From contig MU006108.1 of NCBI GenBank assembly GCA_010093705.1, forward strand, positions 1 to 64,000: 64,000 bases of DNA, read 5' to 3'. A program made the translations under genes and the position numbers. Below are positions 4,935 to 49,430 of this stretch, one piece after another (within the stretch, counting starts at the first letter, position 1; every line of letters starts with the position of its first letter). A model generated the notes under the pieces. It did no database searches, had not been told where the DNA came from, and saw only the letters and a list, made by a program, of their open reading frames with translations. The DNA comes from Patellaria atrata CBS 101060 (Eukaryota > Ascomycota > Dothideomycetes > Patellariales > Patellariaceae).

Positions 4935-7900
4935 TTAACATTCACTCTCTCCAAAATCAGATTGAAGAAGTAACTGTCCATCCAGTATCATCCCAATATG
5001 TGTCTTGTCAATTGCCTCACAATCTCTCCGAATCTTTGTCATGAGCACCTTCAAAAATGTGACAGGACTGTCATGGAAACTAGATTTTGATTTGGATACT
5101 CCCCGGCCAGCGCCGTTTCGTAAAATGAAACCGTCAGTAGCAATAATGCAGTCCCCTTCAGCTTTTTCCCATGCGAGGCCCAGCAGCTCGCATAGTTCGA
5201 TGTACTCCGTGAACGAGTTGAGGTATAGTTGTCCCGCAAATAGATTCAACAGCACGAGAAGACGGCGGGGCAAGATCCTAGCCTCCCGCTGCGCAGGGAC
5301 AGTATATAAATCTAGTCGATCCAGAGAGCGGAAGCCCAAATTCGATCGCGGAGCGTAAAGGTGGAGTGTTACGATCTTAGATTGTCTAATAATCAACAGG
5401 AGCTCCTGTGCTTCATATGGACTGATGATAATCGCGTGCTTAACGGTATTGTTGCTTAGGTCACTGCTACCAGTGCTCGTAAGAACCCACTGGACCGGCC
5501 GTTGGTAAGCGTCTGAGGTATATGACTTGCCAGATATCAGAATCGTTCTGGCGAAGTCGGTTGTGACGAGGAGGTCCTGGGGAAATTGCGAAACGTCCAA
5601 ATGTGCGGCGCCGCTTGTGCTGCGGAGTGTTTGGAAGGCGGGCTGATGTGCTTTGGAGTTGCTGATAAGTGAACCCGTATTCACGAATGTAATCAGATCT
5701 GGGTGGATGCCATGCTTTGCAGATTCAGCGGGTGCAGGCCTCTGGACCTGTCGTTCTTGCTCAATCTCCGGGGATAACTCGCGCTCCTGTTCCTCCTGTA
5801 GTTTGGCGGAGTTGGCTTCCAAACTGCCAAATTCACGACAGCGCTCGAATATCAGTTGAAGATTTGTGTTTTGGCTGTTTTGTAAGGAAGATATTACGTC
5901 AATGCTATTATTTGGCCGATACCTATCCTTCAAAGACTGGGACTCGTCCTCAAGAAACTTTTTCGCTTGTTCCTTGGACATCTTTATCTTATTGTTAGTA
6001 CGATAATCAACCCAAAGTGTACTCTGATGTTCGAAACGTTGGCCTTGAATTGCCCAGAGAGGTATACTCCGTCGCATATCGATGCAAGTTTCTGAAACGG
6101 CCCAGCAGAGAATATCAGAAACTTCAATAGGCGCATCATCAGGCTTGATAGCGAGCCTCAGAATCTTGGTTTTGATCTCTTCCGGGACGCAGAAAACGAC
6201 TGACTGCCCTTTTCCAAGCTTTCTCATTCTCATACATGCTACTAAGATGTCAGCAGCGCTTACCAAACCGAGTGTGCAGACTCTCACCTTGAACTAATCT
6301 ATCTTTCGTTAAATTTGGTCCTAATGTAACGGCTGCCTTGTAGTATTCTGGCAATCTCAAATCTGTACCTCTAGTATGGGCTTCATCTAGGAATACGAGA
6401 CATACATCAAGTTGTTTGGCGAACGATGAGGTTTGTAAGGGCTCAATTTGTCCCTTACGGTTAAGGACAGTGAGCTCATCCTTATTATCAAAGAATACTA
6501 CTGCTTGTACTTTTTCATGATCAGGCATCCTCTTAAGCCACTGTATTGCAACCCCTAAATTACTAAGTTCAATAATTTGGGCCCCAACGTCAAGGATTAC
6601 TTGCGGCGGTGGGTTCATAGTTTTCACCATATCCAAGAGAAGTTCCGCCTCGGAATCAATAGTCCCTCCACTTGGTGGCATAAGCGCAATGGAGTTTTCA
6701 GGCTGGAGTAAATGCTCCAAGACCAGCGCATTGGTGTGATTCTGCTCTGGAAGATCAAGCTGTCTTACGAATAGTGGTAAGACTTGTCTTGCGTCATTTG
6801 TACCGCTAAAGCCAGTTGTCGGGTGTGATTTAATCCGGCCAATGTCCCAGCCTGATGCGGACAGTTTGTGTGGGAACTCCTTCATCTCCTTCGGGAAGAC
6901 GATGTGCCCCAAAAAGTAATCGATGACACTCTTAGCGTAGCGGAGAGGAGGAAATACTTGCTTGATACACTGTGAACGGTCCTTGAGACTGATACCAACC
7001 AACTGACGGAATGCTGGTGGTAGACTAGGAGCATCTTTGACCCACGCTTGAAATTCGATGTCTGCCTGGTCTGACTTTAGAAGGTGAGAAAAGGCTAAGA
7101 ATAGGTCATCGTCGTCGATCCCACCATAGTAGTAGCTTAAGGAAGTAAGAACAATAATAACATCAGGATGACTAAACTCTGATCGCGGTGTGGGATTGTC
7201 TTTAGCCCGGTATGGTACTGCAAGTTTTGTCATAGGCTGTCTGTTCGCATCAAGCCCATAATTGACTCGCCAGCGTTTCTGGCTGAACGAGAAAGCCAAC
7301 ACTCCTCCGGCAATGAGACCTCGCAGGAGAAGTAGGGGTTTGCGTGTTGTCTCCGTCAAAAATCCTCCTGAGTCGTTAGTTTCTACTCGGCCAATCTCAT
7401 CAGATGTGAGATTAGGCTCGGTGATGTATTTGAAGACAGCCTCTCTAACAGCTTCTGTCTGCCTGGCAATTGGAAATCCGTTGAATCCGGTCTCACAAAG
7501 GGATTTAGCAATGTGGCGGAAGATCAACTCTTGGGCATCGGATCCGAGGAATCGAGTTCGAGGGAAACCTCCTGGCCAACGCTCATTGACCTCTACGGAA
7601 AGGGGAAAATCCTTTGCTGCCCTTGGGGCAATCTGCCTAACCAATTCTAGCACCTTCTGAATGCAAACCCACCGCTCAGGGCCAAGCTCAATGGGGTGCT
7701 GCATGCCCATTGTGTAGATCAGCTCGAACTTCACACTAAAATTTTCATCACTCTCATCCACAATATCGCGAGTCGACTTATCGAAGTAGGTCTGTAGGCT
7801 TAATAGAGAAAGACCAATTCTCTTCTTGCCTGTGATGAGGCACTCGAGGCCCATTAGCTGAAAGGACAGAATGTGTTCGGGATGAACAAGGAGAACACCT

Positions 7901-10900
7901 CCATTTGTCATGCATTCCTGGCAGATACTGTAAATTGTGTTTATCTCTGCTTCTCCGAGCATAAGGGAACGAGAAAATGGGAGATGGTAGACTCGTCTAC
8001 TCAACAAACCTCCCAACTTAGAAACCAACATCTGAAACATCTGTCTAGATTGCGGTTTAGCCACGATGACACGAACCAGCCGAGAAGAGTCTGCGAGTGC
8101 TGCGGCCACCATAGGGACGATCACCGACGACTTTCCCTCACCCATGTTCAACTGCATTACCGCATTTCCGGCAGATTTAGGACCTCTCATCTCTCTAGCA
8201 ATTTGTTCCTGGACTTCTCGAATCATAATGCCGCTCTCAACTTCTAGGAGCAGAGATTCGGGATGTTGGGTAGGATCCCAATTGGTATGGCCAGGATTGC
8301 GGAGTTCTGTGATCAAATCTGCAGTGTGGTTTGATAGACTCATGAGACGCTCCGCTCGTTGAAATTCAACGAGAGCTAGAGCGTAGTGAACAAGACAGAG
8401 CTTCCAGTCGTTTGTTATCTTTTGCCACCGGTTGCGAGCGAGTTGTTGGAGAAGGAGGATAGGGGATAGTCGTGGCCACTGTTGAATGCTCGTAGCAACA
8501 GCTGAAGCTTTATGCCTCTGCTCGAGCAATAAGTTCTCGACTGTATCACCAGCGGTTACAGCACAGGATATAGCAGTATAAATCTTCTCGACATGCTCCT
8601 TGCAGAGATTCAGGTGATTGTGGAGAATTCCCTCGACATCGTCCGCCTTGGGCTCTAATGAATATTTCTTTCCCCAGCATTGTAAAGAGAGAAGGCTGTC
8701 CTGTAAACCCTTGGCGTAATTCCTCTCATAACTGGAGCAAGCCCGAGTGGCGATTCGATCTATCAATGAGGCGAGACGAGGGAATGTTTTGTCCGCATCA
8801 GGAGACGCAGACAAGAGGCCTGTCAAATTCTCCGTCCTAGGAGGCAATACCGGGGGAGAGAAATATTCAAAAATGTTATCGACACAGACGAAGCCACTTC
8901 TCCTCGAGATGGCCGGTAAAGGTGTGGTATATGAGTACGAGGGCATCTCCACCTCTTTAACCTCTTTCGGTCTGAGTGCATTCTCAATTTGGCCGAGATA
9001 ATTGTAAAATCGGTAATTGTGAAACCAGGTCTTGAACATTGGCCTCACTTTTTCCATGGCTTTACTCATATCCATATACGTGCTGAACCCATCATCAATT
9101 GGAGTAACGGGAATTTCGCAAGGCCATTGAGCTTTTAGTGCGCGCAAAAGTGCAGTGAGGGTATTCTCTTGATTGTTCGAAAATAGGTGTTGTCGGCGCG
9201 TGTTGAATGCATCCGCACGTTCCGATCGACCACGGGAGAGCCTTGCTTCAGGGCAAAGATAAAACGGGAGAAGGGCAGACCGCATAGCACATCTTAGTTC
9301 CGAGGTTTCTATCTTTGCACCTTGAGATAGGCGAAATGATGTAATTTCTGGGGGGCGGACCTGAACCATCTCGGGCATTGTGAAAAATGAGGCCAGTGTT
9401 TGAACAATCCTCCCGTCACTGTTTTCAGCGAACGCAAGCGTGGAGAGCCAGATCATCAGTTGGAACTTATCAAAACGAGGGTGTGCCTGACTAAATGTTT
9501 GGTGCAGAGTGCTCCAATACTTGGAGACAATTTCGCACGAATCTTGGAGCAACCTGGCATCATACCTTAACTCAGGGATTGGTGCCAGATGGTTTAGTCC
9601 TAGTATTTTGGGATTTCTTGAAAGAACACTCCACAAATGAGCTTTCAAGTCAGAAACTCTGTAGTGGACCGTCGTAAGTTCACGGAAAACGATGCTTGAC
9701 ATGACAAAAGCTTTGAAACCTCGTGCTGAGTTCTGCTCCCGATCCCTGGCTACATAAGTAGTATCGTGTTCTACGGTGTGGTCCTCGGCACCAAATCCTG
9801 AGACTCGAAACGTTGATGACCGGATACAATCGCGTTCCAGGAGTTCCGGATCAACGTGATCCAGGCTAGGTGGTTGGACATATGAATCTGGGTAAAATAT
9901 TTTTGTCTTGATAGCTTGGTCAAATATGATCTTGACACTCTTATAAAATCCACCGTGCTGTGCTAGGGATCTGAGTTTTGGTATCCACTCTACCGTTTGC
10001 ATGACACGTTCATTAGCTGGATAACATTTTCGTCCTGGTGTTAAAAGGGCGATTTTGTGAAGGATGTCAATGTTCTCATGTGTCAATCGATCGAATGATC
10101 TAACACCAGCAGATTCTAAGATTGAGAGTGCCTGTTCAGTCCCAGTTCTTTGTATAAGGGGATCGACCAGGCAGTGAGACGTGAGTGCATGGAGATAGCA
10201 TAGAAATAACTTGCTTTGCAAACTCCCATTTTCGATCAATCTACCGATCCGGTCATCTATGTAGTATGCATGGTATTTCGCAGCAGAAGTCTTGTCAATG
10301 ACAACGCGAATATGATGACCCTTCTCCTCGTACGATACACGACCTTGGGGTATTATAACAAGGCGACTGTTATTCTCCTCATGCTTTAGTATGAGCTTGT
10401 TATGAAGGCCAACTAGAGTATCAAGTGACTGAGATTTGTCGATACTCATTCCGCGGAATTGCCGGGACTGGATTGAAGATGCACCCGAATTCAAATGGAA
10501 CCCCAGCTGCAGCCTAGGAAGTTCAATCTCCAACGATGATGAAGATTGTAAGACGATATGTATCCGAAGCGGATCCTCAAGGGGAGAGAGTATCTTGGAG
10601 ATCACTCGTGCGGTCTTACATTTGACGCTGACCAAAGATGTCCCATCCTTCATCAGACGCCATTGGGCAAGAGGGTTTACTCTGGTCAATCTCCAATGGT
10701 TTGGAGATGAAGTCCAGGGCTCTTTGAGAGGACGGAACTCCACGCAGTCATTAGTCACGTCGTACCAATGCACAAAGTCCTCAGCGAATGCCACAGGAAG
10801 TTCCCCACCGAAAACCCAGGAGGGAATAAGTTCATATTTCCGGCCAAGTTCCACGGCTTGAACCAGGAGATCGTAGTCTTGTGTGTTCGGGTTGCTCGGG

Positions 10901-13900
10901 AAACTGTTAATCCCAAAGTGAAGGGTATAACCAGCATATTTCTTCTTCCCGGAGAATTGCATGCCGCGAACAGCGGTTGGCATTACCTCTAGAGCGGAAT
11001 GGCCAAACAGTGTACGGTAAGCTGCGTGATGTTCGTACTTAGAAGGAAGACGAGCCAAGGGAAGACCGTTTACAAGAAGCTCACCGGTTAAGAGATTAAA
11101 ATGGACGGATAGAGGGTCACTCTCGCCTTGAGTGGTCATTTGGGTGACGAGCCAATAATCAAATTGTTCTGACACCACTTGCCAGGGTTCTCCTATTTGA
11201 TAGGCGGACCAGGCCTTCTTTATAGCGTCGTCCAGAGATCGACTTCGGGCTTTCAAGACTTCCTTTGCAAGAATAGGATAAGTCATGTATGATAGCGATT
11301 TCCAACGCTGGTGCAGTATATGAATCATCGAATCAGATGACTTCGAGATGGTATAGGCGCCTTCTTGGATGAAAATAGAACATTGGATGAAGATAGATGC
11401 ATCATTAGGCGATGTCAAAGTTTGATCTAGATATGTTTTATCAACATTAAAAGAATCAACACAAACCAAAGCGATCTCCACGGCCTTGGAAATTAAATCT
11501 GTTCTTTCGTGGTCAAGAGTTGCTCTGTAGGCCTTGTCCCTAAGAAGGTTGACCCAATCAAAAGCAATAGCACGAATTTCATCTAGATAACCCAGGCATA
11601 AATTCTTGATTACATCCGTGGTATTCAGCGACAGCAACCGTGCAGCTAAGGAGATGAAGGTACTGAGTGCTTGGGAAGACTCCCAGTTCTCCTTAACTCT
11701 CTGGGAGGCTATATGCAAGCTCTCTAAGAAAGCATGAGCAAAACTCTCCTCGTCCACAATTTTGTGGCCTGACCTCAAGATACCTTCATCACTGGAAGGT
11801 CCAGCTTGATAGATTGATTGGAGAACCACAAAGGTAGTTTCGACCTTCTTGAAATCAACCGATGGGGCGCACAGTTGCAATAGAATGTTTTGCCACTGAA
11901 TTCGATATCCGAGAGGGATAGTACATAGTGCCTTATATTCGTCCAATGACATGTGAGTAGGGCAATCGTACTGATCTGATATGACAGTGTTAGGTGAAAG
12001 TCCGCTGGGCATGGTAGCCGGGCGAAAGAGAAACTTCTGGAGAGATGATGACTTTGTAGGTAGCTCGTAGGTGGGCAACTTCGAGATCTCATGATCAACA
12101 TGGAAGTCATTGACAAAAGCATCCGTTCTCCCATCATAGTATCTATACCAGAGTCCGTTATTAAGGCAGACATCATCTTCGGTAGCGGTCGCGATCGATT
12201 TGTTCCGGCGATGCGTAACCTCATGTGGCTTATCCTCTGACATAAGACCAAGACGCTGCATTGCACTAAATGGGATGAAGGATGAAGATAGTCCTTGGTA
12301 ATTGTGTAGATGGTGATGTGCTCGCGGCGGATTTGTCGACAAATTTTCAACATTCAGAACGTCGAGCAGAAGAAACCATGCTGCATCCCGCCACTGGCCA
12401 AAATAAGGAGGTACGCTCAGTTCGAATACTGTCGATTGTGCTTCAAACTCGTTGCTAGGTAGAGGCCATTCATGAATTCGGATAACAAGGGATTCGGCTT
12501 GAGATTTGTCATCACACTTCTGGCAGTGGATACTATGGCGTAATTCGCGGAAATCATTGAACTCGTCCATGATCACTTCAGAGTATTCACATTCACCGTG
12601 ATCGTACCTTCGCATTAGACAGTTGTACTCCTCCTTCTTCGAATGAAATTCGTCGCGCTTCCTCTGTCTAGCTATATTTGCTCGATTCTCAATAGTTCTG
12701 AGCAACTCTTGATGTTCGGGAGACTGGTTGAAATATTTCACTGGAAAACAGTTTTGAAGACCATAATCATGAAAGATACCCGGCGATCGATAGCTAGTAC
12801 GCGCTTGACGGCGATTGAGATAGTCTTCCACGCGAATCAGTCGCTCCATCTGGCATCTAAAAGGTAGTATCAGAGATTGAAAGAGCTCTAATGGGATGCC
12901 TACATCATAGTCTCCTAAGAGTGCGCAAATATGAACTGCGGATTCATCGCAGGCGATCCAAAGTTCAAGGATAGTCAGCAGCATTATGGAAGTAGCCTCG
13001 GGATTTCCGGAATAAAAGGGGCATGCAATACCATGATAACTGTAAATCAAGCCACTTATTCTACCGCAGGTGCTGAGATCTCCCTTATGACGTTCCAGCC
13101 ACTGACGGAGGTTAGCAGCAACCCAATCTTCGAAAGCCCTTAAATCATACGCGGTGTACTCTGTGGACAATGAGCTGAAACAGGTCGGAAGTTCCTCAGA
13201 CTGATATCTGATAAGAGCAGAGGAGGGTTGAAAGGCGGGAGCTTCTTGCTGATGCTCTCGTTTGGCCAGCGACTTAATATACTCCTCTAGAGCCGGAAGA
13301 GAGTTGAATTCGTCCTGGCGAAAATTCAGGTGTTCAAGCTGCGATAGATCATAGTGAGGGTTGGCCTTTTTCATAAAACTTGACCATCTCACACTCATAA
13401 GTGTGTACGTCTTTCGCATAACATTTTGAACGAAGTTCAAAATACTGCTGTCCACGGCTGAATCGATCTTGAGTAGGCGTCGAGAAAGTTTTGCGTTCAT
13501 CGCATGGTACAACTCACTGGGGAGGTGGTATTGGTGGGAGAGCTCTAGAATGTTGCTCATGCAAAAGAGCATAAAAGTCTTATAGAGATCTCTTGATCTT
13601 TCACTCGACCTAGAAAATATGAGCTGCATGGCAACGCGGATAAGCAGCCATGTTGGAGATCTTCGCCATGGCAGAAGGCTGTCGAGCCACATAACCTCTT
13701 CCCGGGTGTTCTTCCAGAGGTAGGATACGACCACTGGCTCAGCGAAAGGCCTCAAGAATGCCATGAATAATTCAGTGATGATTATTGGATGTGATGTATC
13801 CCGATCTTCGTCGTGCTTACGTCCAGCTTTTGTCGCTTTGGGCATTGTTTCCACAGCACGTTGATGGCTCATTTTGGTAAGTGTATGTGCAACCGTCGCC

Positions 13901-14451
13901 AAGAGTTCAGGTTGTTTGAAAGTTTCGACATTTACAGAAAAGGCGGGTCCTGGAAAGGAGCGTCGAAGTCTGCCCTTGGTGGTAATCACTGGCTGGTTGA
14001 GAGGAGACAGCTCAAATGCCTCAACATGAATTGAGTTTTCAACCTTGCTGATCATAACGCCGGCATTTTGAGCTCGTATGTGAAGAAGAATTGTTGCAGG
14101 ATTGACTAGTCCAACTCAGTAAGATATTTGGAAAGCCATTATGAAGAAGACGTATACAGTACCTTTCTTGCACAGCTCTCTTAGGGCACTTTCAAGCTCT
14201 CTCTCACCCACGGAAGCGCGTATGGTCATCAGACTAGAGATCATAGCAATAACCAAGTCAATTGCACCATCATTCTCATCAACTACATGCGTTTTGAATT
14301 TCCGAAGGGCGTCCAGAGTGACATTCAGCATGATCGATTCGTACTCTAAATCAGAATCATCCTCCTGTGGAAGTCTCGGCGGAAGGAATATGTGATGAGT
14401 CAAATACATAATCGCCTCAGTTGAGAGCTTTTCGGTAAAGTTTTCATCCAT
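4935..14451 (-). CDS. giant DUF3638/DUF3645 protein with SecA/SF2-like ATPase motifs
   Basis: A conserved but functionally undefined fungal protein of 3,136 residues. Exons 14451-14163, 14105-6288 and 6238-4935 sum to a multiple of three. The N-terminus (YLTHHIFLPPRLPQ) and the following stretch (ELSPLNQPVITTKGRLRRSF) are typical of this family. The conserved C-terminal third holds the DUF3638 segment with a P-loop, MGEGKSSVIVPM (Lys2088), and the acidic box DIVDESDE (2210-2217). The DUF3645 segment, PPSGGTIDSEAELLLDM, follows. Near the end are DEAHTRGTD (2670-2678) and VQACMRMRKLGKG (2701-2713). The order P-loop, acidic box, RGTD, Gln/Arg-rich box is that of SecA and SF2 translocases, though this is my reading and not an established assignment. 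The long N-terminal two thirds show no motif I recognise. No signal peptide or clear membrane segment is seen. The start ATG at 14451 is the first in an open first exon. Confidence 0.85.
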
Positions 14452-27927: not shown

Positions 27928-30900
27928 ATGTCTGATTCCGACGATTTCGGAGATTTCGACAATGATGATTTAATTCTAGCTACTACACAGGCCGAAAAAT
28001 TGCACGGAGTTACCCAAGATTTTCCAGAGTCCAACCGTCCACGGAAGAGACGAAAAATAAAGAGTCAATACGATGGCAGTGATAATTTCAGATTCGAAAT
28101 GCAAGATGAGAAAACATGTAACCCTCGTTCCTACGACTTGCCATCCACTTCGAAAGAAGCTGAAAGGTCTTCCGGAGTCACAGTAGACGAAGTCAATCCC
28201 TTAGACCCTCAACATGGAACAGCGTTGAGAGTGAGGTCACAACATGGGGTTCGTGTCCCTGCAAGGGTCGATAACTTGAATGACGTCTTGGTCAATCAAG
28301 CTCTAGATTCTACGCAAAGTCTGGGGCTAGTCCGAGGTCCCATATGGCAGAAGAATCCGCAATTGAATGAATCGGGCCCTAAGGCGAGCAGATCAACTCT
28401 TGGAGTGTCGCAAAATGCCATGGACCCGTTGCAAAGGATGCCCCTCTCAGAGAACATGAATAAACTGAGTTTTCGAACGTTCAGTTCCGCAAACCGCATG
28501 GGCGGGGCAAATACCTCTGTAGCTCAACATATGTGAGTAATCAATTAGCGTGGTGTATTTTGGGATCTTACTCATCCTTAATTTAGAGCTACGTTACCCT
28601 ATGACCCTGCCCAAGAGCTCGCAGATCTTCCATCTGACGCTTTTTCTTCGTCGCAGTCCTCTCCGCAAAGGCAAGCAATAGGTGCGAGATTCGTTAATCC
28701 TCAAGAACAGTCGGTCCCAATGATATCTCGCAGACTTGCCGCTCCACATGCTGGTCTCCGCCAAACCACTTTATTCGGACGAGACCTTGCGGACGGTATT
28801 CCCGCTTCTCAAACCAACAAGCAGTACAACTGGCCTCTTGCTGAAAAGGTAGAACCACCAACCCACCATCAGCTCGACTTTGAAGCACTTAAGTCGTGGG
28901 TGTATCCGACCAATCTAGGTACAATTCGTGACTATCAGTTCAATATCGTGTCCAGAGGGCTATTTCACAATCTTCTGGTGGCTCTACCCACTGGGCTTGG
29001 GAAAACATTTATTGCAGCTACTATCATGCTGAACTGGTTTCGCTGGACAAAAGATGCCCAAATTGTATTCGTCGCTCCCACCAAACCGCTCGTTGCTCAA
29101 CAAGTGGACGCATGCTTCGGTATCGCCGGAATCCCTAGATCACAGACCACGATGCTGACGGGGGGCATCTCACCTAGCATTAGGGCTGAACAATGGGCTG
29201 AGAAACGGGTCTTCTTCATGACTCCTCAAACTCTACTAAATGATCTAAAAGCAGGAATCTGTGATCCCAAAAGAATCGTTCTCGTAGTAGTTGATGAGGC
29301 TCATAGAGCCACTGGAGCTTATGCTTACGTTGAGGTTGTAAAATTCATCCGACGGTTTAATGAGAGCTTCCGAGTCTTAGCACTAACTGCCACACCCGGA
29401 TCAGATGTGGAGTCCGTGCAAAAGGTCATTGATGGGCTAGACATTTCTCGGATTGAGATCCGAACTGAGAATTCCCTAGATATCAAAGGATACGTAAACC
29501 AGCGAAGAATTGAGAAATTCGTCTTCGAGAATTCGGAGGAAATGGTTATGCTTATGGAACTTTATTCAAAAGCTGTGCGGCCCGCACTCAATGTGCTGAA
29601 CACTCAAAATGCGAACTGGGTAAAAGATCCCGTTACGCTGACCCCTTATGGTTTAACGAAGTCAAGACAGCAATGGTTGTCATCGGAGGCAGGTAGAAGA
29701 GCGCCAATGTCAATCAAAGGCATGGTGAATTCAGTCTTTACTATACTTGCTAGCTTGTCACATAGCATGGAATTGCTCAAATATCACGGTATCGGCCCCT
29801 TTTACCACGGTCTTCTCAAATTCCGCAAATCAGTTGAAGAGGAGAAAAGCAAGTCGAGGTACAAAAAGCAGATCAATGAGGATGATAACTTCCAAAAGAT
29901 GATGGGTACTCTCAAAGTTTGGATCAATAACCCTGAATTTGTCGGCCACCCGAAACTCGAGCATCTTCGATCTCTCGTCCTAAACCATTTCCTCGATGCC
30001 GGGGAAGGACGCGGAGCAGATGGCGCACCACCATCAGCTACTCGTATAATGATCTTCGCACACTGGAGAGATAGCGCGGAAGAGATTGTCCGTATTTTGA
30101 AGCGGGATGAGCCGATAGTTCGACCTCATGTTTTTGTAGGACAGGCAGCTAGCACAAATTCCGAAGGAATGAGCCAATCGAGGCAACAAGAGTTAGTTGC
30201 TCAGTTCAAAAAAGGAATATTTAACACTCTCGTGGCAACATCTATTGGTGAAGAAGGTCTGGATATCGGAGAGATAGACCTAGCCGTCTGTTATGATTCC
30301 AAAGCATCACCAATCCGCATGCTACAACGAATGGGACGTACAGGACGGAAGAGATCAGGTAACATAATTCTGCTTCAAATGAAAGGTAAAGAAGAAGATG
30401 ATGCAGAAAAAGCAAACGACAACTACCTGAAAATGCAGGAGATGATTGCGAAAGGAGACCGTTTCACCTTTCACGGCGATCGTTCTCGTCGCATTTTGCC
30501 GAAAGAGGTTCAGCCTGTGGTAGATAAGCGTATCGTTGATATCCCTTCTGAGAATTCTCAACAAGAGTTACCGGAGCCGAAGAAAAAGGGTAAAGCACCT
30601 AAACGCCCTCCGAAAAGGTTTCATATGCCAGATGGCGTGCATACCGGATTTGTCAAAGCCTCAAGGATAGACGACGTGAATAATGATCAGGATGAGGAAG
30701 ATAGCAGACCTCGAGGCCCAATTCTCTATTCTACCGCACCCGTTCCAGTTCCAACTATAGCTGAAGTTCTTCTTAACCGGGACCAATGGGGTGAATTAGA
30801 ACGTCAGTACCAGAATGCCTTCGATATGGACGGCGGCGAAGTGATTAACCCCCCTAACCTGACCACTCAACCCGAAGCCCAGCGGAGACTTCGCAGAATC

Positions 30901-31704
30901 AAGCATGTGAGCCACGGTCGGACTTGCAAAGATGTTGTAGAGATGCTTAATAGTATACATACTATGTCCCAAGTCTGTGACTTCAAATACGAGAAAAATT
31001 TGCATATGTCCGACCTTGAAGACAAGCCCGCACACATCCTTCAAGCATCGTCAAGCGAAAATTCTTCTAATGAGGAGGAAGGCAAAGACGACAACACTAC
31101 CATAAGCGGCTTGGATTCAGATATAGAGGACGTCAGAGATAACATGCTTCATCCGTCCTTTTCATGTCCATCATCCGGTTCCCGGATGAGGGCCAAATCG
31201 AAACAGAAACGTAAAGCCTACAACAGACCTTCACTTTTCCTCACATCGGCATCCCACTTCCCTAGCTCTCCTCCACCCTCCTCCCCACGCTTTGCCCTTC
31301 CTACTCAAGGCATAGATATAGGCTCGGACAACACCTCTGGCTCGGAAGAAGCAGAAGGAGAGCCATCTTCGGAGCTACGGGACTTTGTGGCCGGTGATGA
31401 TGAAACTGTTTGGGAAGGGTCATCGAGTGGTGTTTGCAGGAGCAATAGAACTGTGAGGCTAAGCCAGATGTTTTATCTGAGCCAGGAAGTAGATGAAGAC
31501 GAGAACCATGATGAGGAAGATATGCCGGACCTTGCTGATTTGGTTGCGAGTGGGGCAACGAGGAATGAACGGAGTGCAAATCTAAGTGATAAAGAAATAA
31601 GAAAACCAAAGCCACAACAGAGGAATGTTGAATCGGATGAGGAGGTTCATGTTCATAGGAAACGGAGAAGAAGGGTCGTAGAAGAACATGAGAGTGACGA
31701 ATAA
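27928..31704 (+). CDS. mph1: ATP-dependent DNA helicase MPH1 (FANCM family)
   Basis: A nuclear 3'-to-5' DNA helicase that unwinds D-loops and remodels stalled forks, the fungal counterpart of FANCM. Two exons (27928-28532 and 28587-31704) give 1,240 residues. Motifs: Walker [11 protein letters not shown] (Lys341), Walker [11 protein letters not shown] (438-441), motif [13 protein letters not shown], and motif [14 protein letters not shown] (from 782). Between the RecA domains lies the MPH1/FANCM-type helical insert ([18 protein letters not shown] and what follows). The C-terminal third is acidic and low in complexity, with basic patches such as RKRRRR near the end that suit nuclear import. 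The N-terminal exon is poorly conserved, as usual in this family. The start codon ATG 27928 is followed by an acidic [13 protein letters not shown] motif typical of fungal MPH1 N-termini. Confidence 0.95.
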
Positions 31705-35246: not shown

Positions 35247-38200
35247 ATGGCAGACAAAAAGGAGAATAACCTCGCCCAATTCAAATATGCGGCTATGTCC
35301 AACCTGGTTCTCCAGGCGGACCGCAGATTTGTAACGCGGCGAGGTGATGAGAATACAGGCGATCCGGAATCGCTAGCCGGGCGTATCAATATCAGGGATA
35401 TGGGGTCACGCACATCTCGGGAAGACGCGCCGGTCCAGGCAAAGAAGTCTAAGGGGCCGTCTAACATCGAGCGCGGAAGTATAAGAGAAGGCGAGGACAT
35501 GCTGGAGCGAGAACAGAAGAAAAGGAAACGTGGCGAGCCGGTACAGTTAAGAGGAACGGGCATTTTAAGTCAGCAAGACCTCTTGGTTGAGGATCTAAAG
35601 TATAGGCCACGGACTTCAGCTACGAGAGCCACATATGAGCTTATCACGACTATTGTTGGTAGACATTTAGGTGACGTACCGAGTCACGTCACCAGGAGTG
35701 CGGCAGACGCGGCTCTAGAATATCTGAAAGATGATAATTTGAAGGATTTCGACCGGAAGAAGGAGATAGATGATATACTAGGCTCAAGTATGAGCAGCAA
35801 GGAGTTTAATGAACTAGTCAACCTGGGCAAAAAAATAACGGATTACGATGCACAGGATGAAGATGAGAATATGGAAGATGCGGCAGATGGGACCGAAGGC
35901 GCGGAGTTGGATGACCAACAAGGTGTTGCCGTTGTCTTTGATGAATCAGACGAGGAAGAAGGTGCTCAGACATTTGAAGTTCGGGATGAGGATGATACTT
36001 CGGAAGATGAGGCAGAAGGCCTTACCGAACAAAATGATGAAGGAGCGAATGGTGTTCTAGACGAAACAGCAAACGAAAATGGAGATGAGGATGCCGAAGG
36101 GGGAGAAATGGTTTTAGGATCTACCACGTCTAAGTCACAAAACGAGAGGCAGGACCAACTTGTACCCGCCCACGAGATTGATGCTTATTGGCTACAGCGG
36201 CAGATTGGTTTGGTATACCAAGATGCTCATACACAACAAGAGAAGACCCAAGAAGCATTGCAGATTCTATCTGGCGTCTCAGACGATGGGGAGGAGAAGC
36301 AGTTACGAGAGATTGAGAACGATTTGATGGAACTGTTCGATTACGAACATCACGAATTTGTTGCGAAGCTAATTATCAATCGCGACAAGATCGTTTGGGT
36401 CACAAGATGGCGGCAAGTCGCTGAAGAACCGGATGCAAGAGCAGCAATCGAGCGACAAATGATAGCCGAAGGCCACCGCCATATACTAACTGAATTGCGC
36501 ACCCGAGAGGTAACCACAGAGACGAGCGATCGGACCTCCAAGAAAAAGTTAGCAGTCGAACTCATGGATGTCGACGTTCCTGCTGAGTCAAGAGATGCCG
36601 TGATGGTTGACCAAAAGGATAGCGGCTTGAAGGGTGGTCTACAACCTAAACGCTTGATCAATCTCGAGAATCTCATATTTGATCAAGGAAACCATCTCAT
36701 GACCAATCCTAACGTGAAACTTCCACAAGGTTCAACCAAGCGTACGTTCAAAGGGTACGAGGAAATCCACGTTCCTGCCCCGAAAGCTAAGAAGGATGCT
36801 AATGAACCTGAGAACTTGCCCACCTCAGAATTACCGGAATGGGCGAGGCAAGGCTTTGGTTCATCAAAGAGCTTGAACCGAATCCAAACAAGGTGTTACC
36901 CGACCGCGTTTAAAGATGATGGGAATATGCTCATCTGCGCCCCTACGGGTTCCGGAAAGACCAATGTCGCTATGCTGGCCATGTTGCGAGAGATTGGTAA
37001 GCATCGCGACTCGAATACCGGCGAAATCGATCTTGATTCCTTCAAAATCGTGTACATTGCCCCCCTTAAAGCACTCGTCCAGGAACAAGTCGGGAACTTT
37101 GGCAAGCGGCTGGCACCTTACGGGATTACCGTGTCTGAACTTACAGGTGATAGGCAGCTTACTAAACAGCAAATTGCGGATACCCAGATCATCGTCACCA
37201 CGCCAGAAAAATGGGATGTCATAACGCGTAAGGCCACAGATACGAGCTATACAAACCTTGTTCGTCTCATTTGTATCGACGAGATTCATCTTCTACATGA
37301 TGATCGCGGTCCTGTCCTTGAAAGCATCGTCAGCAGGACTATTCGCAGAGTCGAACAAACTGGGGATCTCGTTCGTTTGGTAGGGCTAAGTGCAACGTTG
37401 CCTAATTACCGCGACGTTGCGAGCTTCCTAAGGGTCGACCCCCTCAAAGGCTTATTTCATTTTGATGGTTCATTTAGACCTTGTCCTTTGAAACAAGAAT
37501 TCATCGGCGTCACAGATAAGAAGGCTATCAAGCAGTTAAAGACGATGAATGATGTTTGCTATACTAAGGTTTTAGAACAAGTGGGTCAACAGCGTAACCA
37601 GATGCTCATTTTCGTACATTCAAGGAAAGAGACTGCTAAGACGGCAAAATACATTCGAGATAAAGCTCTCGAGTTGGATACGATCGGCCAATTATTAAAA
37701 AGTGAAGCCGCCAGCCGTGAAGTTCTCAAGGAAGAATCTGACGGAGTACAAAATTCTGATCTGAAGGACCTTATGCCATATGGATTCGGGATACATCATG
37801 CCGGCATGAGCCGCGCGGATCGCACATCTGTCGAGGACCTCTTCGCTGATGGCTATCTGCAGGTACTGGTATGCACTGCTACACTCGCTTGGGGTGTCAA
37901 TCTTCCAGCCCACACGGTCATCATCAAAGGGACGCAGATATACTCACCCGAGAAGGGTAGTTGGGTCGAATTGAGCCCTCAAGATGTGCTCCAAATGCTT
38001 GGACGTGCTGGTAGACCTCAGTTTGATACGTTCGGTGAAGGAATCATTATTACCACTCAGAACGAGTTACAATACTATCTCTCACTATTGAACCAGCAGC
38101 TGCCGATTGAAAGCCAGTTCATGAGCAAGTTAGCAGACAACCTCAATGCAGAAATTGTATTAGGCAACATTCGAACCAGAGATGAAGGGGTTGAATGGTT

Positions 38201-41200
38201 AGGATATACGTACCTGTTCATCCGAATGCTTAGGTCTCCCGGTCTGTATAGTGTGGGAGCAGACTATGAAGAAGACGAAGCTCTAGAACAGAAGAGAGTC
38301 GACCTCATTCACTCAGCCGCCACTGTTCTCGATAAGTCAAACTTGGTAAAATACGATAAAAAGTCTGGAAAGCTTCAAAGCACGGAGCTCGGGAGAATCG
38401 CCTCGCATTACTACATCTCGCATAACTCTATGCTTACCTACAACCTCCACCTTCAACCATCTATTACGCCCATAGAACTCTTCCGCGTCTTCGCGTTAAG
38501 TGAGGAGTTCAAATATATTCCGGTCAGACAAGATGAAAAACTTGAACTAGCAAAGTTATTGGGACGTGTGCCTATTCCAGTCAAGGAGAGCATTGAAGAA
38601 CCTCAAGCGAAAATCAACGTCCTTCTACAGGCCTATATTTCGCGGCTCAAACTAGAAGGACTAGCTTTAATGGCCGACCTCGTCTATATTACTCAATCCG
38701 CTGGTCGTATACTCCGAGCTATTTTCGAAATATGCTTAAGGCGAGGCTGGTCTTCGGTCGCAAAGACAGCTTTGGATTTGTGTAAAATGGCGGAAAAGCG
38801 GATGTGGCCGACGATGACACCTTTGCGCCAGTTCCCAAACTGTCCCCGCGAGATCGTTCAGAAAGCGGAGCGTATCGAGGTTCCATGGTCGCATTATTTT
38901 GATCTAGATCCTCCACGGATGGGCGAACTCCTTAGTATACCGAAGGCTGGACGAACTGTATGCGCCCTAGTGCAGAAGTTCCCTCGTTTGGAAATTCAGG
39001 CACAGGTGCAACCTGTGACTCGTTCGATGCTACGTGTCGAGTTGACCATAAGTCCAAATTTTGAATGGGATCCCGAGCTTCACGGAAGAGCGGAGAGTTT
39101 TTGGATCCTTGTAGAGGATTGTGATGGTGAAGAAATCTTGTTTCATGATCAATTTCTTCTTCTTCGAAATTATGCTGAATCAGAGGTCAACGACCACCTG
39201 GTCGACTTCACTGTACCAATTACAGAGCCCATGCCACCCAACTACTTCATAACAGTCATCTCTGACAGATGGATGCATTCGGAAACCAAACTTGCTGTCT
39301 CTTTCCAGAAGCTCATCTTGCCTGAGAAGTTCCCCGCTCATACGCCGCTCCTCGATTTGCAACCAACCCCTTTCGCGGCGCTTAAGGTTGCGGAATACGT
39401 GCAACTCTATGACGGCTGGGACCGATTTAATAAGATGCAGACGCAAACCTTCAACTCTCTATACGCGACGGATGATAACGTCTTGATTGGAGCATCCACA
39501 GGAAGCGGAAAGACTGTCTGTGCTGAACTAGCCCTCCTTCGATATTGGAAAAAGTCGAGTGAGGGTAGGGCGGTCTATATCGCCCCTTTCCAGGAACTGA
39601 TCGATACACGTTTAAAGGACTGGGTATCTCGGTTGTCGAAGATAACCGGAGGGAAGAGGATCGTGAAGCTCACGGGAGAGACAACTGCTGATCTCAAGCT
39701 ACTTGCAGATGCGGACGTTGTCCTTGCAACACCATCCCAGTGGGATGTCATCTCTCGCTCCTGGCAGCGACGCAAAAATGTGCAAAGTGTTGGCCTTTTC
39801 ATAGCCGATGACCTCCATATGATCGGAGGTCAAGGTGGCTACATCTACGAAGCCATCGTGTCCAGAATGCACGCAATGACACTTCAATTAGAGTCCGGCA
39901 TGCGGATCATCGGGTTAAGTGTTTCACTCTCGAATGCTCGCGACATAGGTGAATGGATTGGGGCAACCAAACACACCATTTATAATTTCTCACCTCACTT
40001 TCGTCCCGTTCCTATTGAAGTCAGCATCCAGCCCTTCACAATTCCACATTTCCCGTCTCTTATGCTGGCCATGGCCAAGCCAGCCTACCAAGCCATCCTT
40101 CAGTCATCTTCTGACAAACCGGCAATTATCTTTGTACCAAATCGCAAGCAAGCTCGTGCAACCGCCGCAGACATTCTCGCTGCGTGCATTGCTGATGAAA
40201 AAGACGATCAATTTTTACATGCTGCGGTCGAGGAGATCGAGCCCATTCTAAAGAAGATAAGTGAAGGAGCACTGGTCGAGTCTCTCTCTCATGGAATTGG
40301 CTATTTCCATGAGGCCTTAAGTTCATTTGATAAACGCGCTGTGGAACATCTATTCAATATTGGGGCAATTCAAGTCATGCTTGTTTCAAGAGATTGTTGT
40401 TGGGAGATCAGCTCAACGGCTCATCTCGTCGTCATTATGGGGACACAGTTTTTCGAAGGGAGAGAACATCGATACATCGATTATCCGATCAGCGAAATAC
40501 TTCAGATGTTCGGTAAGTCTGGCCGGTATGGAGTGGACAAGTCCTGCAAGGGAGTCCTGATGGTTCCCTCCGTGAAACGGGAATACTATACAAAATTTTT
40601 ACGGGAAGCACTACCGATTGAGAGCCATTTGCAAGCATATCTGCACGATGCCTTCGTCCCAGAGATCAGCACTAAGGTCATTTCCTCAACGCAGGATGCT
40701 GTTGATTGGTCGACATATACTTACTTTTATCGTCGTCTTCTAGCTAACCCGAGCTACTATGGCCTTACAGACACATCTCATGAAGGCCTCAGCGCCCATC
40801 TCTCTGATCTGGTAGAGACAACGCTCAAAGAACTATCAGATGCGAAAATCGTCGAACTTGATGAGGAAGATGATACGGTCACCCCTCTCAACGCGTGTAT
40901 GATCTCTGCATATTACAACATCTCGTTTGTCACGATGCAGACCTTCATGCTCTCTCTGACGGGCCGAACGAAGCTAAAAGGAATTCTGGAAATTATCACC
41001 TCAGCTACTGAATTTGAGGGCATACAGATTCGCCGTCACGAGGATTCTATACTGCGCCGCATCTATGAACGGCTTCCGGTAAAGATTTCCGAAGCTTCGT
41101 ATGAATCACCCCATTTCAAAGCCTTTGTTCTTTTGCAGGCACATTTCTCCCGGATGCATCTTCCGGTGGACTTGGCCAAAGATCAAGATACAATTCTTCG

Positions 41201-41933
41201 AAAGGTCCTCCCGCTCCTTAGTGCTGTTGTTGATGTCCTTTCCTCCGATGGCCATTTAAATGCCACCTCGGCGATGGAAATGAGTCAAATGGTCGTTCAG
41301 GCTATGTGGGACCGTGACAGCCCACTTAAGCAGATACCACACTTCGACGACGCGGTCGTAAAGACTTGTAACGAGTTCGGCATCAATGACATCGTGGAAT
41401 TTATGGATGCCATGGATCCCTCGGAAAACAAAGACTACGAGAAACTGCTAAAGAGGATGAGCTTGGATAAACGACAGCTCTCCGATGCTGCAGCTTTCAC
41501 GAACGACAAGTATCCCAATGTGGACCTGACCTTCGAATTGGAGGATCCGGACGACATCAGTGCTGGCTCTCCGGCTTATATCAATGTTGTTGTCGAGCGC
41601 GAGATTGATGACGAGGAAGGGGACGAGAAGACCGAGGTTGATTCTACAGTCCACGCGCCATTCTTCCCGACGGAGAAGTCTGAGAATTGGTGGATCGTGG
41701 TTGCAGAGGAGAGCACCAAGAACCTCTACGGCATTAAGAGGATCACGGTTGGCAGAAGTCTCAAGACCAAGCTGGAATTCGTAGTTCCGAACGCTGGAAA
41801 ACACAACTTGAAGCTCATGTTGATGAGCGATTCTTATGTTGGTGTTGATCAGGACCCTGAATTCGAGGTAGAAGTCAAGGAAGGCGAAGAGGAAAGTGGC
41901 GAAGACGATGAAGACGAGGATATGGAGGAATAG
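35247..41933 (+). CDS. brr2: U5 snRNP RNA helicase BRR2 (SNRNP200)
   Basis: The Ski2-like RNA helicase that unwinds U4/U6 in spliceosome activation. One intronless frame of 2,228 residues starts at ATG 35247. An N-terminal domain of about 500 residues (with an acidic insert at about 200-290) precedes two helicase-Sec63 cassettes. Cassette 1 has Walker A APTGSGKTN (Lys571), Walker B DEIHLL (678-683) and motif VI QMLGRAGRPQFD. Cassette 2 has Walker A ASTGSGKTV (Lys1422), a degenerate Walker B DDLHMI (1521-1526), and QMFGKSGRYGVD in place of motif VI, in line with the catalytically inactive, scaffold role of the second cassette in yeast and human BRR2. The second Sec63 unit ends in an acidic tail. 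Length matches the family (about 2,100-2,200). A U5 protein gene without introns is noteworthy only because most neighbours have them. Confidence 0.97.
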   Translation: MADKKENNLAQFKYAAMSNLVLQADRRFVTRRGDENTGDPESLAGRINIRDMGSRTSREDAPVQAKKSKGPSNIERGSIREGEDMLEREQKKRKRGEPVQLRGTGILSQQDLLVEDLKYRPRTSATRATYELITTIVGRHLGDVPSHVTRSAADAALEYLKDDNLKDFDRKKEIDDILGSSMSSKEFNELVNLGKKITDYDAQDEDENMEDAADGTEGAELDDQQGVAVVFDESDEEEGAQTFEVRDEDDTSEDEAEGLTEQNDEGANGVLDETANENGDEDAEGGEMVLGSTTSKSQNERQDQLVPAHEIDAYWLQRQIGLVYQDAHTQQEKTQEALQILSGVSDDGEEKQLREIENDLMELFDYEHHEFVAKLIINRDKIVWVTRWRQVAEEPDARAAIERQMIAEGHRHILTELRTREVTTETSDRTSKKKLAVELMDVDVPAESRDAVMVDQKDSGLKGGLQPKRLINLENLIFDQGNHLMTNPNVKLPQGSTKRTFKGYEEIHVPAPKAKKDANEPENLPTSELPEWARQGFGSSKSLNRIQTRCYPTAFKDDGNMLICAPTGSGKTNVAMLAMLREIGKHRDSNTGEIDLDSFKIVYIAPLKALVQEQVGNFGKRLAPYGITVSELTGDRQLTKQQIADTQIIVTTPEKWDVITRKATDTSYTNLVRLICIDEIHLLHDDRGPVLESIVSRTIRRVEQTGDLVRLVGLSATLPNYRDVASFLRVDPLKGLFHFDGSFRPCPLKQEFIGVTDKKAIKQLKTMNDVCYTKVLEQVGQQRNQMLIFVHSRKETAKTAKYIRDKALELDTIGQLLKSEAASREVLKEESDGVQNSDLKDLMPYGFGIHHAGMSRADRTSVEDLFADGYLQVLVCTATLAWGVNLPAHTVIIKGTQIYSPEKGSWVELSPQDVLQMLGRAGRPQFDTFGEGIIITTQNELQYYLSLLNQQLPIESQFMSKLADNLNAEIVLGNIRTRDEGVEWLGYTYLFIRMLRSPGLYSVGADYEEDEALEQKRVDLIHSAATVLDKSNLVKYDKKSGKLQSTELGRIASHYYISHNSMLTYNLHLQPSITPIELFRVFALSEEFKYIPVRQDEKLELAKLLGRVPIPVKESIEEPQAKINVLLQAYISRLKLEGLALMADLVYITQSAGRILRAIFEICLRRGWSSVAKTALDLCKMAEKRMWPTMTPLRQFPNCPREIVQKAERIEVPWSHYFDLDPPRMGELLSIPKAGRTVCALVQKFPRLEIQAQVQPVTRSMLRVELTISPNFEWDPELHGRAESFWILVEDCDGEEILFHDQFLLLRNYAESEVNDHLVDFTVPITEPMPPNYFITVISDRWMHSETKLAVSFQKLILPEKFPAHTPLLDLQPTPFAALKVAEYVQLYDGWDRFNKMQTQTFNSLYATDDNVLIGASTGSGKTVCAELALLRYWKKSSEGRAVYIAPFQELIDTRLKDWVSRLSKITGGKRIVKLTGETTADLKLLADADVVLATPSQWDVISRSWQRRKNVQSVGLFIADDLHMIGGQGGYIYEAIVSRMHAMTLQLESGMRIIGLSVSLSNARDIGEWIGATKHTIYNFSPHFRPVPIEVSIQPFTIPHFPSLMLAMAKPAYQAILQSSSDKPAIIFVPNRKQARATAADILAACIADEKDDQFLHAAVEEIEPILKKISEGALVESLSHGIGYFHEALSSFDKRAVEHLFNIGAIQVMLVSRDCCWEISSTAHLVVIMGTQFFEGREHRYIDYPISEILQMFGKSGRYGVDKSCKGVLMVPSVKREYYTKFLREALPIESHLQAYLHDAFVPEISTKVISSTQDAVDWSTYTYFYRRLLANPSYYGLTDTSHEGLSAHLSDLVETTLKELSDAKIVELDEEDDTVTPLNACMISAYYNISFVTMQTFMLSLTGRTKLKGILEIITSATEFEGIQIRRHEDSILRRIYERLPVKISEASYESPHFKAFVLLQAHFSRMHLPVDLAKDQDTILRKVLPLLSAVVDVLSSDGHLNATSAMEMSQMVVQAMWDRDSPLKQIPHFDDAVVKTCNEFGINDIVEFMDAMDPSENKDYEKLLKRMSLDKRQLSDAAAFTNDKYPNVDLTFELEDPDDISAGSPAYINVVVEREIDDEEGDEKTEVDSTVHAPFFPTEKSENWWIVVAEESTKNLYGIKRITVGRSLKTKLEFVVPNAGKHNLKLMLMSDSYVGVDQDPEFEVEVKEGEEESGEDDEDEDMEE

Positions 41934-47803: not shown

Positions 47804-49430
47804 ATGGTCAACTCCTCCAGACCATCGCTGCGATCCAGTGCACGTATCAACAACGATACGTTCAAACCTTCCGCGACCGAGAATGTGACAGGTGCACAAC
47901 ATAGCTCCTCTGCCATCTCAACGCGAAATAAACGCGTCCGCGAGAGCAATGCTACCCTTCCTGCCATACCAGAGCCTTTGCCTAACATTAAGAGGTTGAA
48001 ACTGGCTGACAATGCACCCAAGTCAACGCGAAGTAGTACCAGGCCAGCGGCGAATAATGCAACAACCATATTCAACGACTCCTTGGTCGGATCTCACCTA
48101 AAACCCCCAACCAAGATTATCCTCACACAGCCTCATGGGAGACTGCTCTCTGCGACCAATGGTGTATCAACCGCATTACCTCTCTCTCTCGATGATGTCG
48201 CTTCGCAAGTTTCCACACTGAGATCCAAAGATCCAATAGGGATCAACAACAGTAATAAGGATAGCAATGGCTCTATAGCAGGACCTTCGAAGCTTGATAA
48301 ACGCACATTACGGTCGCATGATGGAGGATCGAGATCTAAGAGTGAACTAGCCATATATTTCCCAAATTATGAGGATATCATTAACGATGTCCCGCGACCG
48401 ACAGGTATGCCACAAGGCCATCTCATGCAGTTATAGCAGTACATACTTACAGCTACTCTCAGACACAATAGGGACGGACACCCTCATATGCCTTGTGGAC
48501 GAGGTTGTGAAAAGTCCTAAGGATTCCTCCCCCCTAAACCTGAAATCTATCCTTCTGTCGGCCGGCACGTTTCCCCATCAAGGCCCGAAAGACGGCCCTT
48601 CTACTGCGCATGTTAGATTCGAAAGGATTGACTTACCGTCATACCATCAATATAATCACCCTCCCGAATTTGACCCACTTTCAGAGGGTGTGTTCTTCAA
48701 ACCCCATCGCCGTGCGGAGCGAAAGGAGAAGCAGCTGCGCAATATCGAGAAAGAGCGTGCGATGCATGAAAAGGTCCAACTTGAACGCCTCCTCGATGGC
48801 CTTCTGGGTCATGATTGGCTACGCGTAATGGGCGTGACTGGTATAACTGACGGAGAGAAGAAAGATTTCGAGTGGAAACGGCAATACTTTATCCGGGAAG
48901 TACGAGCACTCGTGGACAAGTTTCGTGAGTGGAAGGAGGAAGAAAAACGAATCAGAATGGGTAAAGGCACAGTACCCTCTGCGAAGGATGAAGGAGACGA
49001 TGAAGAAGGAAACGAAGACGAACACACCCAGGACGATATGACTGAACCTCCCCCTTCAAGTGATGTCGATGCGTGGGCAGCAAGACAGCTTCAGCAAGAG
49101 GCATCACGCTCAACAAGTTCGGCGTCTGTTCCACCAAATCAATCCCGCCGAGGTCAGCGTATGCCTGCTCACCTTCTTCCCCCTCCGACGCCCGAACCGG
49201 ATACACCATTCACGTCCTTTTTTTCCAAACCATATATTCGAGCAGCTGCTCTTGGCAAGCATAGATATGGGTCACGAACCGTTTTGGCGTTTGGTTTACC
49301 AGTTCCAGATTTTGAGGAACGATTATTTCAGTTACCACCTGATTACACAACCCCCGAAGAGCTGAGAGCTAGTGCAAGGAGGCGGAGAATTCTTAGAAGA
49401 GAAAGGATGAGCATGACAAGTTCAAAGTAG
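47804..49430 (+). CDS. sas4: SAS4-like subunit of a histone acetyltransferase complex
   Basis: Homologue of Something-About-Silencing protein 4, the scaffold of the SAS complex that acetylates histone H4 Lys16 in yeast. Two exons (47804-48404 and 48463-49430) give 522 residues. The N-terminal 200 residues are basic and disordered. The conserved core starts in exon 2: HPPEFDPLSEGVFFKPHRRA, then ERKEKQLRNIEKERAMHEKV, LERLLDGLLGHDWLRVMGVT and VRALVDKFREWKEEEKRI. This block is the fungal SAS4 domain. An acidic stretch (EGDDEEGNEDEHTQDD) and a Pro/Ser-rich part follow. The C-terminus (FGLPVPDFEERLFQLPPDY) is also conserved in fungal members. The partner acetyltransferase is not in this window. Confidence 0.85.

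Follow-up and report, generated by a model that had tools for sequence, protein, structure and literature searches.

A giant DUF3638 protein of the fungus Patellaria atrata with a predicted SecA-like SF2 motor

SecA is the motor with which bacteria push proteins through membranes, and to our knowledge it is not generally found in eukaryotes outside plastids. Within the first 64,000 nucleotides of contig MU006108.1 of Patellaria atrata CBS 101060 (the window) lies a gene for a protein of 3,136 residues that carries the Pfam domain DUF3638 and that an earlier, sequence-only reading had described as a eukaryotic motor of the SecA or superfamily 2 (SF2) type. In the literature passages that our search returned, DUF3638 appears among the lineage-specific genes of an Aspergillus oryzae strain, as two new Tetrahymena genes, as a large gene family in microsporidia and as an expanded family in Hypomyces; these passages give it no function, no paper in the literature searched joined SecA and DUF3638, and of the protein's two other domains DUF3645 was mentioned there in one paper and DUF6606 in none. 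Here, we describe what is probably (about 0.58 by our own estimate) an ATP-driven SF2 motor on the SecA side, which a giant scaffold carries at about residues 2050-2760.

The protein belongs to the DUF3638 family by a Pfam score of 337 bits against a cut-off of 31, and the parts of its motor are as follows.

7621..8289, minus strand: DUF3638 (PF12340), equivalent to the first RecA domain (RecA1) with motifs Q, I, Ia and II; E 6.9e-102
8125..8148, minus strand: motif I or P-loop, NMGEGKSS, residues 2083-2090; G2085, G2087 and K2088 in 26/26 motors
7744..7764, minus strand: motif II, IVDESDE, residues 2211-2217; D2213 and E2214 in 26/26
6820..7746, minus strand: insert between motifs II and III, residues 2217-2525, at the site of the SecA preprotein-binding domain
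6793..6819, minus strand: motif III, TTGFSGTND, residues 2526-2534; T2532 in 26/26, G2531 in 23/26; SecA counterpart GMTGTA
6577..6597, minus strand: ILDVGAQ in the second RecA domain (RecA2), residues 2600-2606, by position the presumed motif IV region; D2602 in 26/26
6358..6390, minus strand: motif V, LDEAHTRGTDL, residues 2669-2679; G2676 in 26/26, D2678 in 25/26, R2675 in 6/26
6222..6291, minus strand: motif VI, QACMRMR, residues 2702-2708, split by an intron; Q2702, R2706 and R2708 in 26/26

The motifs named by the sequence-only reading were found where it had put them and at the spacings it had given, with the P-loop MGEGKSSVIVPM beginning at residue 2084 (Lys2088), DIVDESDE at 2210, DEAHTRGTD at 2670 and ACMRMRKLGKG at 2703. 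Its helicase series holds in order and spacing; motif III had been overlooked, and motifs I, II, III, V and VI are now seen to be kept in the order of an SF2 helicase-type ATPase. Conservation was judged on an alignment of 26 motors, three fungal and 23 bacterial (12 genomes), that are 16-38% identical to the window protein; an incomplete sequence (L104) was dropped. The motif conservation is more than chance, since all 26 sequences agree at 11 of 870 columns (G2085, G2087, K2088, D2213, E2214, T2532, D2602, G2676, Q2702, R2706 and R2708) and ten of these fall within motifs I, II, III, V and VI, the eleventh being the single aspartate D2602. The rows were collected with the DUF3638 profile, which spans motifs I and II, so that conservation there is partly a matter of selection; the profile does not reach motifs III, V and VI. 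Lys2088, on which the sequence-only reading had staked its case, is thus kept throughout, and together with it D2213, E2214, R2706 and R2708. The other residues on which it relied fared less evenly. Only the first Asp-Glu pair of DESD is among the invariant columns, RGTD retains its Gly and Asp but not its Arg, and the DEAH in motif V does not survive as a family feature, E2671 being Glu in four and Gln in 20 of the 26 motors. Motif VI keeps a Gln and two Arg residues and reads Qx3RxR in all 26, where the SF2 form is QxxGRxxR and most rows of a SecA set compared with it read QLRGRxGRQG. The window protein is very probably an active SF2-type ATPase.

The fold prediction points the same way. It was made for a paralogue (L006), whose motor has no intron interrupting motif VI and shares 35-37% identity with that of the window protein. 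The AlphaFold2 model (17 sequences; predicted local distance difference test score, pLDDT, 75.1; predicted template modelling score, pTM, 0.74) has the tandem RecA fold that the sequence-only reading had named for comparison with SecA and SF2 enzymes. In a Foldseek search of the PDB ranks 1-6 are all SecA (E 1.2e-9 to 8.4e-7), and SecA makes up 10 of the 42 matches at E <= 0.001. The first match other than SecA is LGP2 (E 1.5e-6), followed by DinG, INO80, MDA5, RapA and others; judged by title, the 42 comprise SecA, helicases, Dicer, and complexes that remodel chromatin or RNA polymerase. Conservation and fold prediction together place K2088 and D2213/E2214 in RecA1 and R2706/R2708 in RecA2.

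A sequence link to SecA was found by way of a set of giant bacterial proteins. In the order of a Hymenobacter genome (Bacteroidota), 20 genomes held a weak DUF3638 match, and the loci of ten were inspected; in three of these genomes (G971, G953 and G879; 0.9-1.9 Mb) the match was a giant SecA-domain protein. The open reading frames (ORFs) concerned are L169:1-5952, L170:554-6922, L171:2007-9830 and one on L183. A hidden Markov model (HMM) of the SecA core, run against few sequences, matches them at E about 1e-49, a five-row profile of such giants matches SecA at E 1.1e-44, and those on L169, L170 and L171 have the Pfam domains SecA_DEAD (E 7e-35 or better), SecA_PP_bind and P-loop_SecA above cut-off, with DUF3638 below it. 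A profile of the four giants matched the 26 DUF3638 motors at 82% (E 1e-5, score 57.2; 0/30 shuffles as good, maximum 25.6) and the three fungal motors at 81% (score 54.8; 0/30 column shuffles, maximum 27.6). When the giants are aligned with the DUF3638 motors, the Q motif, P-loop, DE box and GxxGT of the two groups coincide, and the fungal alignment matched L169 itself at 82.8%, with 34% identity in a span of 61 columns that opens at the Q motif and takes in the P-loop. With moderate confidence, the sequences make the SecA-domain giants a bridge to the SecA branch, one that depends on the fungal rows. The giant on L170 is rich in ankyrin repeats, that on L169 has a TPR match below cut-off, and each of the three genomes has a further frame of 619-1,117 residues with a stronger SecA_DEAD match (E 4e-108 or better).

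A number of results weigh against placing the motor with SecA. A gammaproteobacterial SecA profile reached 0.8% against the whole motor and 6% against RecA1. Direct comparison of profiles speaks for SF2 in general: against the DEAD-box set the DUF3638 RecA1 scored 87%, and against SecA 3-25% depending on the SecA set; as a yardstick, the RecA1 of SecA itself scored 97% against the same DEAD set (one of its rows being on the wrong strand). Against more diverse SecA sequences the DUF3638 pieces gave 2-25%, or 0.7-11% once a wrong-strand row (L086) was left out, and with a maximum of 11% direct profile comparison was rejected as proof of SecA. None of the Pfam SecA domains (SecA_DEAD, SecA_PP_bind, P-loop_SecA) was among the 20 families matched at E <= 1 by 13 members, two fungal and 11 bacterial. 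Motif VI likewise differs, with Qx3RxR in the DUF3638 motors against QxxGRxGRQG in SecA. The fold evidence has its own weak points: as regards the helical scaffold and two-helix finger of SecA, the paralogue model has low confidence (pLDDT mostly under 60) from about residue 780 onwards, roughly 50 residues beyond motif VI, the TM-scores to SecA are low (best 0.37 by query, 0.47 by target), and E. coli SecA was matched only at E 1.4e-3. The insert was modelled on its own for the window protein (25 sequences, pLDDT 82.8, pTM 0.84) and had no PDB match at E <= 0.001, the best being a P450 at 0.58; a SecA-like fold is therefore seen for the motor and not for the putative clamp. The insert's profile matched the preprotein cross-linking domain (PPXD) of SecA, which has the same position, at 11% over 10 columns, with 0/40 shuffles as good, and its reading as a PPXD was set aside as doubtful for lack of a fold match. 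The bridge has limits too. With the 23 bacterial motors alone the four-giant profile gave 5%, below DEAD (20%) and PriA (15%). The PriA and UvrB sets also exceeded all 30 shuffles, as did DEAD for the 26-row profile (for the fungal profile one of 30 shuffles was as good), so that beating the shuffles speaks for SF2 kinship and not for SecA kinship as such. Segment HMMs run against SecA and other SF2 sets were likewise set aside, as SecA was not singled out: motif II did best on SecA and barely better than on shuffled sequence, the P-loop favored PriA-type proteins, and motifs V-VI did best on shuffled sequence (the set labels were our own, and row L056 of the UvrB set resembles PriA). Weak PF12340 matches occur in Mfd-like and PriA/UvrB-like proteins as well.

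Much of this would suit a different motor, an SF2 helicase or translocase of nucleic acid (DEAD, PriA, RIG-I-like or DinG-like) set in a giant scaffold and acting, for example, on foreign or viral RNA or DNA, with the SecA match owed to an insert at a similar place. The RecA1 match to DEAD-box proteins (E 3.7e-6) supports it; the whole motor scored 34% against PriA (all 26 rows; 56% fungal, 15% bacterial) and 42% against DEAD (0.9% fungal, 20% bacterial), the bacterial members alone favor DEAD and PriA over the SecA-like giants, and the Foldseek matches that follow SecA are LGP2, DinG, INO80 and MDA5. DinG also has an insert in RecA1. One bacterial member (L054) scores 28.6 bits for ResIII (cut-off 22.5), a match that counts for the main reading too, and matches DEAD at E 1.9e-4; against the main reading, it also has ABC_tran above cut-off (27.7 against 25 bits), so that its P-loop alone drives part of such matches. 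In the PDB, however, six SecA chains outrank all helicases, and with the fungal and 26-row profiles the SecA-like giants (81% and 82%) stand above DEAD (0.9% and 42%), PriA (56% and 34%) and UvrB (47% and 8%). We regard the nucleic-acid motor as a doubtful but substantial alternative, and assignment to the SecA branch rather than another SF2 branch as only somewhat better than an even guess.

Two further readings leave the motor aside. Some relatives are named "ubiquitinyl hydrolase 1", among them two of the nine best giant-virus fold matches, and nine bacterial members have near the N-terminus a stretch in which His, Asn, Gln and Cys residues are invariant (GGW..GH .. Q.S.TC) and which could be a cysteine peptidase. 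The stretch was seen in bacterial members only and has no convincing relative in the PDB (best E 0.43) or Pfam, no peptidase domain appears at E <= 1 for the window protein (exon 2 and 3 frames) or among the families listed for 13 members, and the part conserved across the family is the ATPase, which leaves the name hardly credible as a guide to function. A degenerate motor, with the protein a mere scaffold, might be suspected from the unusual motifs V and VI; the catalytic residues are nevertheless kept in 26/26 very diverged members, and we hold it to be very improbable.

The SecA reading is thus right as resemblance and not as membership: what had been called a SecA/SF2-type motor is an active-looking one, with tandem RecA domains by fold prediction and SecA as its nearest solved fold, and with weak direct similarity to SecA profiles. 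As to how it might work, ATP binding and hydrolysis would close and open the RecA pair, this motion would shift the insert of about 310 residues (2217-2525) at the position of SecA's substrate clamp, and the moving insert would pull or remodel a substrate, while the N-terminal part of about 2,000 residues would choose the target. As substrate, nucleic acid is less likely than an unfolded polypeptide or a protein complex, given that both the bridging proteins and the nearest fold resemble SecA; a polypeptide substrate, taken as a claim of its own, is tentative and falls somewhat short of even odds. More speculative, and on balance unlikely, is the view of DUF3638 proteins as a branch of the SecA clade that is resident in eukaryotes outside plastids, made up of giant polypeptide translocases or unfoldases with a substrate clamp of their own, exchanged among fungi and protists, giant viruses and intracellular bacteria for conflict inside eukaryotic cells.

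In the P. atrata genome (28.3 Mb, 46 contigs) the family has long open frames at three loci, on contigs C20 (the window), C9 and C17, and a fourth, decayed copy on C13 (L008:1-6900). This copy has several frame breaks and no base composition like that of repeat-induced point mutation, and tblastn matched nothing in it for some 300 residues that start within the insert and end ahead of motif V. Conservation among the fungal copies is weak over the N-terminal 2,000 residues (25-28%); fungal and bacterial members can be aligned around [LF]xRYxLxF, some 800 residues upstream of the P-loop, with weak HMM support. The fungal alignment alone found no prokaryotic relative in the genome contigs and nothing in the viral contigs. 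A degenerate DNA pattern for DExHTRGxD found 17 stretches, three with relatives (L024, L019 and L022), of which L024 is from a metagenome-assembled genome titled Gammaproteobacteria (G001). L019 and L022 are contigs of one 'Deltaproteobacteria' metagenome-assembled genome (NYXK01) whose DUF3638 genes are fungal-like with frames broken as by introns; they are probably fungal DNA contamination and were excluded from all later counts. With PF12340, six of 369 genomes in the class of G001 were over cut-off (G001 included) and eight at E <= 0.001, the two extra holding UvrB/PriA- and Mfd-type proteins by appearance. The phylum sample yielded one of 398, G001 itself, and the order of G322 eight of 14, G322 and G223 being already known. 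None was over cut-off among 390 genomes of the order of the Hymenobacter genome (the 20 weak matches above) or among 387 of the phylum of a Puniceicoccales metagenome-assembled genome (one weak match). On these counts few of the sampled prokaryotes have the family, and those that do cluster in one group.

Bacterial frames over cut-off are 2,013-4,201 residues long, with one of 6,232, and the fungal profile, searched against 13 bacterial ORFs and nothing else, matched them at E 3e-34 to 4e-8. The N-terminal His/Cys stretch occurs in nine of the bacterial giants (L046:10406-11218 and eight others) with invariant GGW, GH, N.G.G, H and Q.S.TC; it is perhaps, from its sequence pattern, a permuted cysteine peptidase, matched no Pfam family in more than one of the nine, and was not noticed in the fungal copies. 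Ten ORFs neighboring the bacterial genes at 8 loci, eight with differing known domains and two without, included no shared partner. No match was found by tblastn in plasmids and phages, and neither of two stretches found with IUPAC patterns in viral contigs was a relative. In a viral fold library, Foldseek found nine giant-virus proteins at E 2.8e-32 to 2.9e-14, the next match being at 1.2e-6; by name five are DUF3638, two "ubiquitinyl hydrolase 1" and two uncharacterized. A tree of the 26 motors, in which long branches meet, does not tell the direction of transfer.

The whole gene runs from 14451 to 4935 on the minus strand in three exons and, as the sequence-only reading had it, encodes 3,136 residues with no inner stop once two GT..AG introns are removed.

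14451-14163, minus strand: exon 1
14105-6288, minus strand: exon 2
6238-4935, minus strand: exon 3
13543..14055, minus strand: DUF6606 (PF20255), match in exon 2, E 1.5e-66, profile positions 96-267 of 267
7144..7245, minus strand: DUF3645 (PF12359), within the insert, E 2.8e-17

The introns are of 57 nt (between exons 1 and 2) and 49 nt (between exons 2 and 3; 6239-6287), and an alternative acceptor 3 nt upstream would make the protein longer by one residue. The second intron splits motif VI; the frame of paralogue L007 is also broken at this point, and that of L006 runs through it. The DUF6606 domain probably starts further upstream than the exon 2 match, since the profile match begins at position 96. 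Beyond DUF6606, DUF3638 and DUF3645, Pfam gave nothing at E <= 1 for the exon 2 and exon 3 frames, scanned separately, and NCBIfam, PADLOC and PHROGs gave no match with E < 0.05 for pieces of the window. The protein is expected to be soluble, because its best 19-residue window has a mean Kyte-Doolittle hydropathy of only 1.69, near but not clearly a membrane helix. Elsewhere in the window are two other SF2 helicase genes, for a DEAD/Helicase_C protein (28720-31704, plus) and a Brr2-type splicing helicase (35247-41933, plus), and genes for SAS4 (48369-49430, plus), a PPR protein (50015-52324, plus), a Sec1 family protein (52389-53888, minus) and CobW in two frames (1113-2668, minus).

A giant SecA-like ATPase of fungi, related to proteins of some bacteria and, to judge by fold, of giant viruses, would give a family known by DUF names a mechanism, and the residues of its motor are now named and ready to test. 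Among known systems, SecA shares with it two RecA domains, a GEGK P-loop, a DExD box, a motif III of GxTGT type, the Gly and Asp of motif V, the Gln and Arg of motif VI, a large insert between motifs II and III, and the top place among PDB folds, whereas the window protein has 3,136 residues, an insert whose fold lacks a PDB match, and no SecA Pfam domain. The giant SecA-domain proteins resemble it in size, in a Q-x-N-x-GEGKS P-loop, in GLTGT and, in three of four, in a DEVD box; they differ in having recognized SecA_DEAD and SecA_PP_bind domains and a motif VI of QxxGRxxRQG. They are possibly the domains meant in a paper that names "SecA-like helicase-related domains" of Amoebophilus effectors (PMC3482391). 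The giant-virus DUF3638 proteins (Hokovirus, Fadolivirus, Harvfovirus, Hyperionvirus, Yasminevirus and a Megaviridae sample), known here from the fold library alone, have the same predicted motor fold. SF2 helicases of the DEAD/ResIII type (PriA, UvrB, RIG-I-like, DinG) share the RecA1 motifs and profile similarity, and they differ from the DUF3638 motor in their lower fold scores and in their inserts.

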